64,000 nt of DNA, from assembly GCF_000153725.1 (NCBI RefSeq), contig NZ_DS022276.1, positions 2,857,884-2,921,883 of the forward strand, given 5' to 3'. Origin of the DNA: Salipiger bermudensis HTCC2601. GTDB lineage: Bacteria; Pseudomonadota; Alphaproteobacteria; Rhodobacterales; Rhodobacteraceae. Under the pieces are notes generated by a model. That model had not been told where the DNA came from. It was given only the letters and a program-made list of their open reading frames with translations, and searched no databases. Shown here one piece after another: positions 44,680 through 48,269 of this stretch (position 1 is the stretch's first letter; the number at the start of each line of letters is the position of its first letter). Position numbers and translations under genes: made by a program.

Positions 44680-45243
44680 TCAGTCAGTGCCGCGCGACAG
44701 CGCCGCGACACCGGTACGCGCCACCTGCACAAGGCCCAGCGGGCGCATCAGGTCGGCGAAGGCGTCGATCTTGTCGGGCGCGCCGGTGAGCTGGAAGATG
44801 AAGCTCTCCAGCGTCGAGTCGACCACCTGCGCGCGGAAGATATCAGCCAGGCGCAGCGCCTCGACCCGCTTGTCGCCGCTGCCATTGACCTTCATCAGCG
44901 CCAGCTCGCGCTCGACCGAGCTGCCCTCGGCTGTCAGGTCGTGCACGTCGCGCACCGAGACGATGCGCCCGAGCTGGGCCTTGATCTGCTCGATCACCTG
45001 CGGCGTGCCGGTGGTGACGATGGTGATGCGCGACAGGTGACCTTCGTGATCGACCTCGGCCACGGTCAGGCTGTCGATGTTGTAGCCCCGCCCCGAGAAC
45101 AGGCCGATGACGCGGGCCAGCACGCCCGGCTCGTTCTCGACCAGCACGGTGATGGTGTGCGCCTCCTGCACGTCCGAGAAGGTCGGGCGCAGGTTGTAGG
45201 CCGAATGCTTGGACGAGCCTTTCTTGATCTGTAGCGCGGACAT
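44680..45243 (-). CDS. ilvH: Acetolactate synthase small (regulatory) subunit
   Basis: Encodes 187 residues with an N-terminal ACT domain (ITVLVENEPGVLARVIGLFSG, GYNIDSLTVAEV) and the C-terminal regulatory half. It confers valine feedback control on the catalytic subunit. ATG 45243 has AAAGGA at 7 bases. It lies last in the operon, 16 bases after the acyltransferase gene. Confidence 0.95.
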   Translation of the reverse strand: MSALQIKKGSSKHSAYNLRPTFSDVQEAHTITVLVENEPGVLARVIGLFSGRGYNIDSLTVAEVDHEGHLSRITIVTTGTPQVIEQIKAQLGRIVSVRDVHDLTAEGSSVERELALMKVNGSGDKRVEALRLADIFRAQVVDSTLESFIFQLTGAPDKIDAFADLMRPLGLVQVARTGVAALSRGTD

Positions 45244-45259
45244 GGTCGTTCCTTTCTGG

Positions 45260-46288
45260 TCAGAACCCGGCAAGGCGCGGGTCGGCGAATTTGCGCAGCA
45301 GCGCGTTCAACAGGATCGGTCCCGCCAAGCCGATGGCGGTGCCGGAGACAAGGTGCAGCGTGGCGTCATCGCTGACGCGCTGCAGCGCCACACGGGTGGC
45401 GGCGGAAAAGATCGTGTGCGCGAGGAAGATCGGCATCGAGAGCCCGCCCAGCCAGGCCAGCAGCCGTCCCGGCGCACTCTTCGCCGGAACCAGCCCCGCC
45501 AGGGCCGCGCACAGGCACAGGCTCAGGGCAATGGAGGCCGCCAGGTAGGGGCCAAGCCGCTCGGGCAGGTCCGGCACCGTCAGGCCGGCCATCTCGATTG
45601 CGGCGAAGAGCGCGACCGCGGCGAGGCCGGCGGCAAGGCCGATCCGCGGCAGCGGCAGGCGCGCCAGCCAGATCCCCAGCACGAACACCGCGGCGTGGAT
45701 CGCGGCGGGGCTGAACAGCACGCCAAAATCGATACCCGAGAACAGCACCAGCGCCAGCACCGCGAGCAACAGGCCGAACCACGTCGCGGTGGGCAGCGGC
45801 GTCCGGGGCAGGGCGCAGACCGGCAGGGCGAGCGCGTGCAGGATGAACAGCGCCCAGAGGAACCACAGGTGGTTCTGCGGCGGCAGCGGCAGCACCATCA
45901 GAGCCTCGAGACCGACCGGCGAATTGGCGGCGGCTCCGGCAGCGATCTTGAAGCCGGCAAAGACATAGGTCCACAGAACCAGCGGCCAGAGCAGCCGCAG
46001 CACCCGGCTCTTGAGTGCCTCTCCCAGCCTCCGTCGCCGCGCCCAGCCCTCGAACGTGTAGCCCGAGAGCAGGAAGAACAGCGGCATGTGGAAGGTGTAG
46101 ATCAGCTGCTCGACGGTCGCGATGGTGCCGGGATCGGACAGGATGCCCGATCCCGCGAGCCCCAGCCAGCAATGGCCGACCACCACGAGCACGATGCCCA
46201 CACCCTTGGCCTGGTCGAGCCAGGCCACCCGCGTTGCGGTGGGGGTGATGGGCGCATCGCTGCGCGTTGCGGTCGCGACCGGGCTCAC
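45260..46288 (-). CDS. Acyltransferase 3 family membrane protein
   Basis: Encodes 342 residues with about ten hydrophobic segments. The N-terminal region WLDQAKGVGIVLVVVGHCWL with the catalytic-type His, then FHMPLFFLLSGY, is typical of acyltransferase-3 proteins that acylate sugars, peptidoglycan or exported lipids. It sits between ilvI and ilvH with short gaps (27 and 16 bases), so it is cotranscribed with branched-chain amino acid synthesis genes, which is unusual. Acceptor and donor are unknown. Confidence 0.87.
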   Translation of the reverse strand: MSPVATATRSDAPITPTATRVAWLDQAKGVGIVLVVVGHCWLGLAGSGILSDPGTIATVEQLIYTFHMPLFFLLSGYTFEGWARRRRLGEALKSRVLRLLWPLVLWTYVFAGFKIAAGAAANSPVGLEALMVLPLPPQNHLWFLWALFILHALALPVCALPRTPLPTATWFGLLLAVLALVLFSGIDFGVLFSPAAIHAAVFVLGIWLARLPLPRIGLAAGLAAVALFAAIEMAGLTVPDLPERLGPYLAASIALSLCLCAALAGLVPAKSAPGRLLAWLGGLSMPIFLAHTIFSAATRVALQRVSDDATLHLVSGTAIGLAGPILLNALLRKFADPRLAGF

Positions 46289-46315
46289 CTTGGCCTCCCT
46301 CCGGCCGTGCGGTCC

Positions 46316-48070
46316 TCAGACCAGCACGGCGCCCTTGCCGGCGATGGCGTTGGTGGCCTGAGCGTCGCCCAGCAGCATCTTGTTGTGCGGCTCGCCCGAC
46401 GGGATCATCGGGAAGCAGTTCTCGTGCTTCTCGACGAGGCAGTCGAAGATCACCGGGCCGTCGTGGTTCAGCATCTCCATGATCGCGTCGTCGAGATCGG
46501 CGGGATCCTTGCAGATGATGCCCTTGGCACCGAATGCCTCGGCGAGCTTGACGAAATCGGGCAGGGCCTCGGACCAGCTCGAGGAATAGCGCTCGCCATG
46601 CAGCAGCTGTTGCCACTGGCGCACCATGCCCAGGCGCTCGTTGTTGAGGATGAACTGCTTAACCGGCAGACGGTACTGCACCGCGGTGCCCATCTCCTGC
46701 ATGTTCATCAGCCACGAGGCCTCGCCCGCGACGTTGATCACCAGCGCCTCCGGGTGCGCGACCTGCACGCCCACCGAGGACGGGAAGCCGTAGCCCATGG
46801 TGCCGAGGCCGCCGGAGGTCATCCAGCGGTTGGGATCCTCGAAGCCGAGGTACTGCGCGGCCCACATCTGGTGCTGGCCGACCTCGGTGGTGATGTAGCG
46901 ATCCCGGCCCTTGGTCAGCGCCTCGAGGCGCTCGAGCGCGTATTGCGGTTTGATCGTCGTCTCGGAGGTCTTGTAGGTCAGGCACTTGACCTGCTTCCAC
47001 TCCTCGATCTGGCGCCACCACTTGGCCAGCGCCTCGCGGTTGACCTTGCGGCCGCGGGCCTTCCACACCTTGAGCATGTCCTCGAGCACGTGGCCCACAT
47101 CTCCGACGATCGGCAGGTCGGTCTTGATGACCTTGTTGATCGAGGACGGGTCGATGTCGATATGCGCCTTCTTCGACTTCGGCGAGAACGCGTCGAGCCG
47201 GCCGGTGATGCGGTCGTCGAAGCGGGCGCCGATGTTGATCATCAGGTCACAGCCATGCATCGCGAGGTTGGCCTCGTAGAGGCCGTGCATCCCCAGCATA
47301 CCGAGCCAGTTCTTGCCCGAGGCCGGGTAGGCGCCCAGGCCCATCAGGGTCGAGGTGATCGGAATGCCGGTGGCCTCGACCAGTTCGCGCAGGAGCTGGC
47401 TCGCCGCCGGACCGGAATTGATCACGCCGCCGCCGGTGTAGAACACCGGGCGTTCCGCCGTCTCGATGGCCTCGACCAGCGCGGTGATGGTCTCCATGTC
47501 GCCCTTGACCTGCGGCTGGTAGTGGCCGACCGGCGCCTTGGGCTTCGGCGTGTACTCGCTGCTGGCGAACTGCACGTCCTTGGGGATGTCGATCAGCACC
47601 GGGCCCGGGCGGCCCGAGGCCGAGACGTGGAACGCCTGATGGATCACCGAGGACAGGTCCTTGGTGTCCTTCACCAGCCAGTTGTGCTTGGTGCAGGGGC
47701 GGGTGATGCCGACGGTGTCGGCCTCCTGGAAGGCATCGGAGCCGATCATGAAGGTCGGCACCTGGCCCGAGAGCACCACGATCGGGATCGAGTCCATCAG
47801 CGCGTCGGTGAGACCGGTGACCGCGTTGGTCGCGCCGGGGCCCGAGGTGACAAGCGCAACACCCACCTTGCCGGTCGAGCGGGCATAGCCTTCGGCGGCG
47901 TGCACCGCGGCCTGCTCGTGGCGGACAAGGATGTGCTGGATGTCGTTCTGCTGAAAGATCTCGTCATAAATCGGTAGAACGGCGCCGCCGGGATAGCCGA
48001 ATACCGTGTCCACACCCTGATCCTTGAGGGCCTGAACCACCATTTTCGCTCCGGTCATCTGACGTGTCAT
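46316..48070 (-). CDS. ilvI: Acetolactate synthase large (catalytic) subunit
   Basis: Encodes 584 residues of the thiamine-diphosphate enzyme family. FGYPGGAVLPIYDE carries the catalytic Glu; the central FAD-associated domain and the C-terminal TPP-binding region (TSGGLGTMGYGFPSSVG, then QFILNNERLGMV) follow. It condenses pyruvate to acetolactate (valine, leucine) or with 2-ketobutyrate to acetohydroxybutyrate (isoleucine). A leader attenuator lies immediately upstream. Confidence 0.96.
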   Translation of the reverse strand: MTRQMTGAKMVVQALKDQGVDTVFGYPGGAVLPIYDEIFQQNDIQHILVRHEQAAVHAAEGYARSTGKVGVALVTSGPGATNAVTGLTDALMDSIPIVVLSGQVPTFMIGSDAFQEADTVGITRPCTKHNWLVKDTKDLSSVIHQAFHVSASGRPGPVLIDIPKDVQFASSEYTPKPKAPVGHYQPQVKGDMETITALVEAIETAERPVFYTGGGVINSGPAASQLLRELVEATGIPITSTLMGLGAYPASGKNWLGMLGMHGLYEANLAMHGCDLMINIGARFDDRITGRLDAFSPKSKKAHIDIDPSSINKVIKTDLPIVGDVGHVLEDMLKVWKARGRKVNREALAKWWRQIEEWKQVKCLTYKTSETTIKPQYALERLEALTKGRDRYITTEVGQHQMWAAQYLGFEDPNRWMTSGGLGTMGYGFPSSVGVQVAHPEALVINVAGEASWLMNMQEMGTAVQYRLPVKQFILNNERLGMVRQWQQLLHGERYSSSWSEALPDFVKLAEAFGAKGIICKDPADLDDAIMEMLNHDGPVIFDCLVEKHENCFPMIPSGEPHNKMLLGDAQATNAIAGKGAVLV

Positions 48071-48111: not shown

Positions 48112-48180
48112 AAAAAAGCCCCCGAGGATTTCGGGGGCGCATGGGGGACCATTATGGTTCCGAGTTACCGGCCCATGCGC
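48112..48180 (-). promoter_or_regulatory. Transcription attenuator of the ilvI operon
   Basis: Minus-strand leader RNA. A terminator hairpin GCCCCCGA-AATCC-TCGGGGGC (48118-48138) is followed by six T (48112-48117), 41 bases before ilvI. Upstream, GCGCATGGG and CCCATGCGC (48172-48180 and 48137-48145) form a perfect 9-bp stem whose 3' arm shares two bases with the terminator arm. The 5' arm overlaps the last codons of the leader peptide. A ribosome stalled on the Leu/Val/Ile codons would leave the long hairpin free to form; one reaching the stop would mask it and allow termination. Confidence 0.85.
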
Positions 48181-48212
48181 CATTTTCCTACGATAAGTAC
48201 CAGACGATCCAC
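48165..48212 (-). CDS. ilv leader peptide (MDRLVLIVGKWRMGR)
   Basis: Fifteen codons from GTG to TAA, preceded by AAGGAG at 8 bases (48221-48226). It contains Leu-Val-Leu-Ile-Val encoded CTG GTA CTT ATC GTA, including codons (CTT, GTA) uncommon in this GC-rich sequence. All three branched-chain amino acids are sensed, matching the operon product. Its stop lies within the attenuator structure. Confidence 0.85.
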   Translation of the reverse strand: MDRLVLIVGKWRMGR

Positions 48213-48240
48213 GGCGTGGACTCCTTCATTGCGCCGCGGG

Positions 48241-48269
48241 ACCTTAGGAGGATGGGGAGGGGGCGTCAA
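48241..48269 (-). promoter_or_regulatory. Sigma-70 promoter of the ilv operon
   Basis: On the minus strand, TTGACG (48264-48269), a 17-base spacer and TAAGGT (48241-48246). Predicted start near 48234, about 22 bases before the leader-peptide GTG. Confidence 0.65.

Follow-up and report, generated by a model that had tools for sequence, protein, structure and literature searches.

A conserved leader-peptide element, probably a transcription attenuator, precedes ilvI in Rhodobacteraceae and recurs before MFS transporter genes

The element before ilvI in Salipiger bermudensis

What sets the expression of ilvI, the gene for the acetolactate synthase large subunit, in Salipiger bermudensis? In the 64,000-nucleotide stretch of DNA analysed here (the window), ilvI lies on the minus strand behind a segment, 48269-48112, that an initial annotation had read as an attenuator governed by a Leu/Val/Ile leader peptide. 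The parts it named, from the promoter and AAGGAG through a GTG-initiated 15-codon peptide and a 9-bp stem (stem A) to a terminator with T6, can all be read on that strand (Table 1). So can the overlap of stem A with the last codons of the leader, whose R-M-G is encoded by the 5' arm, and the presence of all three branched-chain amino acids in the peptide. A short ORF that is predicted to be translated, and that carries control codons for the end products of the pathway, lies between promoter and ilvI, as in an attenuator, and an intrinsic terminator is present between this ORF and ilvI. Stem A comprises 9 bp, or 10 bp if G48181-C48136 is included, and its helix overlaps that of the terminator at 48138-48137.

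Table 1. Features of the ilvI leader and the genes behind it
Feature	Position	Strand	Basis or remark
Putative sigma70-type promoter TTGACG-17-TAAGGT	48241..48269	-	sequence; TTGAC conserved in relatives
TTGACG hexamer	48269-48264	-	read directly
TAAGGT hexamer	48246-48241	-	read directly; spacer 17 nt
Shine-Dalgarno AAGGAG of the leader ORF	48221..48226	-	8 nt ahead of GTG 48212-48210
Leader ORF GTG..TAA, MDRLVLIVGKWRMGR, 15 codons	48165..48212 including TAA	-	sequence; kept in relatives
Control codons CTG GTA CTT ATC GTA (Leu-Val-Leu-Ile-Val)	48189..48203	-	rare-codon bias across 78 leaders
Stem A, 5' arm GCGCATGGG, encodes leader R-M-G	48172..48180	-	near-invariant
Stem A, 3' arm CCCATGCGC, putative antiterminator	48137..48145	-	final two bases common to terminator
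Intrinsic terminator hairpin GCCCCCGA-AATCC-TCGGGGGC	48118..48138	-	sequence; covariation
Terminator U-tract (T6)	48112..48117	-	sequence
ilvI, acetolactate synthase large subunit, regulated gene	46316..48070	-	PRK09107, 1134.6 bits (cutoff 974)
ilvN/ilvH, acetolactate synthase small subunit	44680..45273	-	PRK11895

The IlvI protein passes both NCBIfam PRK09107 and TIGR00118. Downstream of the element the order of genes is acetolactate synthase large subunit, acyltransferase-like protein and small subunit, and ilvN/ilvH presumably belongs to one transcription unit with ilvI. The intervening Acyl_transf_3 gene (45260-46288, minus strand) is weakly NolL-like, below cut-off; among 80 relatives, some on truncated contigs, only one (L022, 37% identity) has an Acyl_transf_3 match in the ilvI-ilvN region, and ilvN follows closely behind ilvI in 56 of the 74 relatives with an ilvN match. 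An open frame of 922 aa (45209-47977, plus strand), antisense to ilvI and the acyltransferase gene, is most likely a spurious product of GC-rich DNA. A promoter scan by simple consensus did not list the TTGACG/TAAGGT pair, the single-sequence folding energy of the element is unremarkable (z -1.20), and no Rfam family (riboswitch, T-box or other cis-element) reaches its gathering score anywhere in the 64,000 nt.

Judging from the sequence and its relatives, a ribosome-mediated transcription attenuator probably controls ilvI. We infer that the leader is translated, that tRNA charging supplies the signal and that stem A serves as the antiterminator. RNA polymerase would start near 48234, as estimated from the -10 hexamer, and a ribosome would trail it through the 15-codon leader. 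When Leu-, Val- and Ile-tRNAs are charged, the ribosome would reach the stop codon and cover the 5' arm, so that the terminator (48138-48112) could form and ilvI would not be expressed. With these tRNAs in short supply, the ribosome would stall on codons 4-8, its front edge only at the start of the 5' arm, and stem A (48180-48172 with 48145-48137) could form first. Stem A would then keep back two basal bases required for closing the terminator at the U-tract and so allow read-through into ilvI.

Conservation of leader, control codons and hairpins

We compared the window with the 80 best ilvI loci of one collection scan, reading up to 400 nt upstream of each. Their titles place these loci in the Rhodobacterales, two giving only Alphaproteobacteria, and the closest ilvI matches come from Alloyangia pacifica and two Salipiger species (91-94% identical). 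The initial annotation had held that related genomes lacking the peptide or the stems would speak against it; 77 of the 80 relatives have leader and stem ahead of ilvI, or 78 of 81 sequences with the window. The three loci in which no leader was called, one on a truncated contig (L044) and two diverged (L059, L086), all match a covariance model, R1, that was built from 57 of the 78 ilvI leaders, the window's included. Within 400 nt upstream of ilvI, 71 of 81 sequences have on the sense strand a short ORF with 5 or more of 6 Leu/Ile/Val; the antisense strand has one in 1 of 81, and five base shuffles gave 0-2 of 81. An SD-like motif stands ahead of the leader in 76 of 78 (control window, 1 of 78), and TTGAC occurs 25-90 nt ahead of the leader start in all 75 loci with enough sequence (control window, 5 of 75). 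The leader is 15 aa long in 73 of 78; among these 73, residue 4 is L, I or V in 72, and residues 12-15 are R, M, G and R in 72, 72, 72 and 73, respectively.

In the genome that contains the window, R1 finds a single site, the 48112-48269 element (E 2.5e-22). Across the family it matches 127 of 149 genomes (129 matches), leaving 22 without a match, and thus finds the switch in most family genomes searched. We examined 42 of the 129 matches, namely the 30 best plus 12 more that were mainly weak or second matches; of these 42, 38 lay directly before ilvI and four before an MFS gene. These data confirm that the element is real and conserved. By comparison, the branched-chain pathway of the Rhodobacteraceae is very probably set by leader-peptide attenuation. 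One genome (G440) has two R1 matches (C24:54098 and C49:87743), each ahead of an ilvI (L286, L245), and seems to hold two attenuated ilvI copies.

The Leu, Val and Ile codons, whose conservation in related Rhodobacteraceae had been proposed as a check, are conserved in the leaders and biased towards rare synonyms. Set against the ilvI genes of the same loci, the 78 leaders use CTA for 42 of 111 Leu codons (37.8%) versus 55 of 3574 in ilvI (1.5%, p 4e-41), GTA for 114 of 206 Val codons (55.3%) versus 140 of 3416 (4.1%, p 5e-86) and ATT for 42 of 86 Ile codons (48.8%) versus 370 of 2850 (13.0%, p 4e-15). The pattern is weaker in the window than in many relatives because its first Leu codon is the most frequent of all, CTG; four neighbouring genes of the window use CTG for 61.5% of Leu codons and GTA for 0.8% of Val codons. 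The adjacent Gly codon, too, is mostly the rare GGA (40 of 78 leaders, versus 4.7% in ilvI), so part of the codon bias may serve the avoidance of structure. The stop context CGG-TAA/TGA-CGG is conserved in 67 of 78 leaders, CGG being 19.3% of Arg codons in ilvI. Rare codons are known from attenuator leaders, and a CUA to CUG change in the Salmonella leu leader reduced its sensitivity (excerpt of PMC1183508).

Covariation among relatives, the other comparison proposed at the outset, was borne out for the terminator, in which five of eight pairs have changed on both sides and none of 500 shuffles scored as high, but not for stem A, which pairs in 99.0% of 513 cells across 57 aligned leaders with near-invariant sequence and no compensatory changes. 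In a wider alignment of 48 elements, diverged ones and those before MFS genes included, the four basal pairs of stem A are kept in 47-48 of 48, C-to-U changes are retained as wobbles and the upper pairs are often broken. Two of the nine pairs have changed on both sides in this alignment, which was fitted to the structure, and the whole-structure covariation score of 0.112 is not above the 0.115 obtained with partners slid by one column. A distant family (f70) has, in genome G225, a leader MSLLIVPCAPNEGLA before ilvI and then, by eye, a 10-bp stem at the corresponding position whose sequence is quite unlike that of stem A. We take stem A to be a real helix because of its conservation and this replacement in f70, rather than because of strong covariation. 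In two f70 genomes (L217, L115), the leaders before ilvI read MSLLIVPCAPNEGLA and MSKILVPRAPFLGRT, the stems are of other sequence and R1 finds no match.

The attenuator reading of the initial annotation thus gains support from conserved rare control codons and a covarying terminator; what the comparisons show is these two, the conservation of the parts and the retained basal pairs of stem A.

A wider family with a second target

Beyond the family, an exact search for the 9+9 stem gave matches in 10 of 385 class genomes, six of them real (five of the window's family and one Atu_C8 locus); the other four (G137, G011, G402, G344) apparently lie inside longer frames, have neither leader nor terminator and were taken as chance. 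We also collected 105 regions upstream of ilvI from 107 genomes of the class (the window's own and one match without N-terminus left out), of which about 101 were usable, three being shorter than 110 nt and one (L121) being sequence inside ilvI. A leader-plus-terminator detector flagged five: two of the window's family, one plausible (G183) and two unconvincing. It missed the f70 elements in G070 and G225, which were found by eye, and R1 matches neither these nor G183; other orders may hold more such leaders than we counted. In Methylobacterium bullatum, a short ORF MRVILIVTEAPPTGRP and a terminator lie upstream of ilvI (L239:522-630), possibly another branched-chain attenuator of different sequence. 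A Rhizobium leguminosarum plasmid has a second ilvI copy with no such element.

The closest Rfam family is RF02502, Atu_C8 ('Rhizobiales sRNA'), which gives the window 24.5 bits, below its gathering score of 50; in the window's genome the hit listed for this model is another site, at 26.6 bits. In Sinorhizobium meliloti Ak57 the Atu_C8 element (121.1 bits) lies directly before ilvI and ilvN, and the Atu_C8 consensus encodes a leader MKNTMIILVVGPRMGRAV (our translation, in which the start codon takes its A and U from L087). The link to the window element stands because R1 matches the rhizobial elements (E 5e-7 to 9e-4), the Atu_C8 model gives the ilvI leaders of both G287 and G225 a score of 32 bits, and the arms are identical. 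The order of parts is also the same, but in Atu_C8 the terminator is spaced from the stem, the ATG lies near the -10 and no leader SD is apparent by eye. The Rfam Atu_C8 'sRNA' is thus the ilvI leader in Sinorhizobium. S. meliloti ilvIH is already listed as having a cis-regulatory element after Vitreschak 2004 (excerpt of PMC2573895), and what is new for it is the connection to Atu_C8. No report of Atu_C8 as an ilvI leader was found in the open-access literature searched, nor did the Agrobacterium paper searched mention C8 under the terms used.

A second target is seen in the 385 class genomes, 18 of which R1 matched, five of the window's family and 13 others. In 11 of these 13, from ten families, the element lies directly before an MFS gene that shares 49.9-63.6% identity with its Roseobacter counterpart; the remaining two, weak matches (G271, E 8e-4; G311, E 1e-3), have neither ilvI nor this MFS gene and were taken as chance. 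Atu_C8 scored above cut-off in six of 36 genomes of another order, each time before an MFS-like gene, two of these genes being judged from the start of the frame only. A plasmid collection gave 16 records with a similar element; in the six read, it precedes ilvI in Sinorhizobium and Shinella and an MFS gene in R. gallicum, R. etli, R. lusitanum and Phyllobacterium.

The window's leader DNA also has a match on the plasmid pTB1 of Roseobacter denitrificans, ahead of a gene for a 'multidrug efflux MFS transporter'. Homologues of this transporter occur in 31 records, and we read 17 of their upstream regions. The element is present in nine of these (Roseobacter, Phaeobacter, Leisingera, R. gallicum, R. 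etli, R. lusitanum, Rhizobium sp. Kim5, Phyllobacterium and Burkholderia cenocepacia), a TPP riboswitch in two (Agrobacterium tumefaciens pAt2, L228:518-634; a Mesorhizobium plasmid, L236:506-622) and neither in six (Robbsia, Pseudorhodobacter, three Paracoccus and Pseudomonas). The Mesorhizobium MFS frame behind its riboswitch stops early and is unannotated. With ilvI leaders as its sole source, R1 gives E-values of 1e-19 to 1e-12 for the elements of Roseobacter, Phaeobacter, Leisingera and Burkholderia. Within a sample of 289 genomes, 12 have this MFS protein at 44% identity or above and seven of these carry the element; it is absent from six more distant MFS matches, which include one in the window's genome.

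The MFS proteins belong to MFS_1, and the Roseobacter protein passes the TIGR00710 Bcr/CflA cut-off while that of R. etli fails it. A tree of 36 MFS proteins has the element on both main branches, and its labels are clustered much more strongly than shuffled ones, with six label changes versus a shuffled mean of 15.1. The MFS leaders are mostly Val-rich; an excess of CTA and GTA is absent from the small named set, into which two ilvI leaders are mixed. Before ilvI the element occurs in Rhodobacteraceae and Rhizobiaceae, and before MFS genes in ten alphaproteobacterial families other than the Rhodobacteraceae, on plasmids of Roseobacter, Phaeobacter and Leisingera, in rhizobia and in one Burkholderia record. 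Plasmids typed as conjugative carry attenuator and MFS gene in Roseobacter (L224:2922-3033), Phaeobacter (L226:562-676) and Leisingera (L227:565-678), in the order listed, and the switch may therefore travel with its target.

The element is thus associated with MFS genes as well as with ilvI. We tentatively propose one switch family with two regulons, ilvI and a subfamily of Bcr/CflA-type MFS transporters, in which the latter would be nutrient transporters induced when valine is scarce. In the simplest case they would import valine or a related compound, and their sisters behind TPP riboswitches would carry thiamine-related substrates. The regulation is inferred, and the substrate is a guess. 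No report of an MFS association of this attenuator was found in the open-access literature searched. The proposal would link transporters annotated as multidrug efflux to the supply of branched-chain amino acids and offers a testable hint at their real substrates.

Hairpin exclusion, alternatives and known attenuators

The mechanistic question is how two neighbouring hairpins can be mutually exclusive with two bases in common, or none. Stem A and the terminator overlap by two bases in 70 of 78 leaders, by 1 nt in seven and by 3 nt in one. A ribosome reaches about 11-12 nt beyond the start of its A site. The final branched-chain codon ends 8 nt ahead of the 5' arm of stem A in 59 of 78 leaders, so that a ribosome waiting there would end at the arm. 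The initial annotation had suggested folding the leader with its codons masked, and in such folding stem A follows the ribosome: with the A site on codons 4-8 its median probability is 1.00 (above 0.5 in 76-78 of 78), and placing the ribosome at the stop codon lowers this to 0 and leaves the terminator full in all 78 leaders. Mutual exclusion of the stems through the two-base overlap, the point that the initial annotation had itself flagged, fared less evenly, since the overlap is conserved but both hairpins coexist in equilibrium folding. With stem A formed, the two basal pairs of the terminator still have a median probability of 0.81-0.97; shifting the shared bases to stem A costs a median of 1.5 kcal/mol, and the two states lie within 2 kcal/mol in 77 of 78. 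We suggest that these two basal GC pairs count more during termination than at equilibrium, since closing them would melt the RNA-DNA hybrid. Without any ribosome their median probability falls to 0.33. Read-through, not termination, is therefore the prediction for an untranslated leader, in contrast to superattenuation in the trp model.

The rhizobial form sharpens the question. In 12 rhizobial-type relatives that we folded, the hairpins lie about 7 nt apart and share no bases, and the terminator of each of the 12 folds whether or not stem A is present, except in one fully masked state (L223). The exclusion step is thus the weakest part of the model. Consensus folding of sub-stretches, with a three-segment design in mind (1:2, 2:3, 3:4), gave no conserved helix alternative to the 5' arm of the terminator; the sole candidate was a three-pair CGG:CCG at a probability of about 0.33. 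A pseudoknot between CGG and the terminator arm was dropped by reasoning, as it would have too few linking bases and its columns hardly vary. A second ORF from the AUG in the 3' arm, noticed by eye, was set aside, its frame being broken across relatives by loop lengths that are not multiples of three.

It is somewhat unlikely, yet worth weighing, that attenuation is real but that stem A is an RNA element in its own right, disarming the adjacent terminator through pausing, protein binding or a tertiary contact and without base sharing. The spacing of the rhizobial ilvI and MFS elements, which keep arms like GCGCATGGG/CCCATGCGC, would fit such a role, as would a stem A sequence more constant than pairing requires: the Arg-12 codon is CGC in 77 of 78 leaders, though CGT would pair as well, and the 3' arm CATGCGCC (A2 columns 103-111) stays unchanged in several MFS elements whose altered 5' arm breaks pairs. 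Against this account stand the overlap, which is itself conserved, and the basal pairs, which are the best kept of stem A.

That the terminated leader also acts in trans, as an sRNA or a peptide or both, in the manner of S. meliloti rnTrpL/peTrpL, strikes us as improbable, even if it would explain the constant RMGR ending and stem sequence at once. The homologous rhizobial transcript is listed in Rfam as an sRNA, and peTrpL offers a precedent for an attenuator peptide that works in trans (excerpts of PMC10117765 and PMC7298713). However, an altered 5' arm often changes the peptide while keeping the pairing (L055 and the Phaeobacter and Leisingera MFS leaders have C for R, and L085 has V for M), which favours a constraint on RNA over one on peptide; a peptide-level cause of the RMGR ending was set aside on these grounds, the one exception, L032, losing its top pair. 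A plain constitutive intergenic terminator behind a chance ORF, or an unrelated riboswitch or protein-binding leader, would sit well with the lack of an Rfam family at gathering score and with a fold that is not unusually stable, but the conserved Leu/Val/Ile leader with its SD and rare codons, set against the antisense and shuffle controls, makes it scarcely credible. Leader-peptide attenuation of ilvI remains our preferred reading.

Among known systems, the leader of Caulobacter crescentus ilvBN/ilvIH, for which Tarleton et al. 1994 is reportedly the source study, also belongs to an alphaproteobacterial acetolactate synthase operon; we compared it with the window element by description only. 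It has tandem Ile and Val codons, a rho-independent terminator and read-through on tRNA shortage (excerpt of PMC4117421). Vitreschak et al. 2004 predicted leader-peptide attenuators for alphaproteobacterial ilvB/ilvIH, the same type of control ahead of the same genes, with S. meliloti ilvIH included (excerpts of PMC1273637, PMC2573895 and PMC6123439). Leader-peptide control of ilv genes has thus been published for Alphaproteobacteria (PMC4117421, PMC1273637, PMC2573895) and for Gram-negatives generally (PMC6123439), as excerpts of these sources state.

The ilvGMEDA, ilvBN and leu attenuators of Escherichia coli and Salmonella likewise have leaders rich in branched-chain codons, with rare CUA in leu (excerpts of PMC6123439 and PMC1183508). 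The E. coli leaders are 28-32 aa long (excerpt of PMC6123439), versus 15 codons here, and the window element has two hairpins only, with no separate third segment found. S. meliloti rnTrpL/peTrpL, which we liken by description only, is also a short alphaproteobacterial leader with an attenuator whose terminated RNA is found as an sRNA (excerpts of PMC10117765 and PMC7298713), but it senses tryptophan. The attenuator type is therefore already known in Alphaproteobacteria, and the greater novelty lies in the wider family and in its transporter target.
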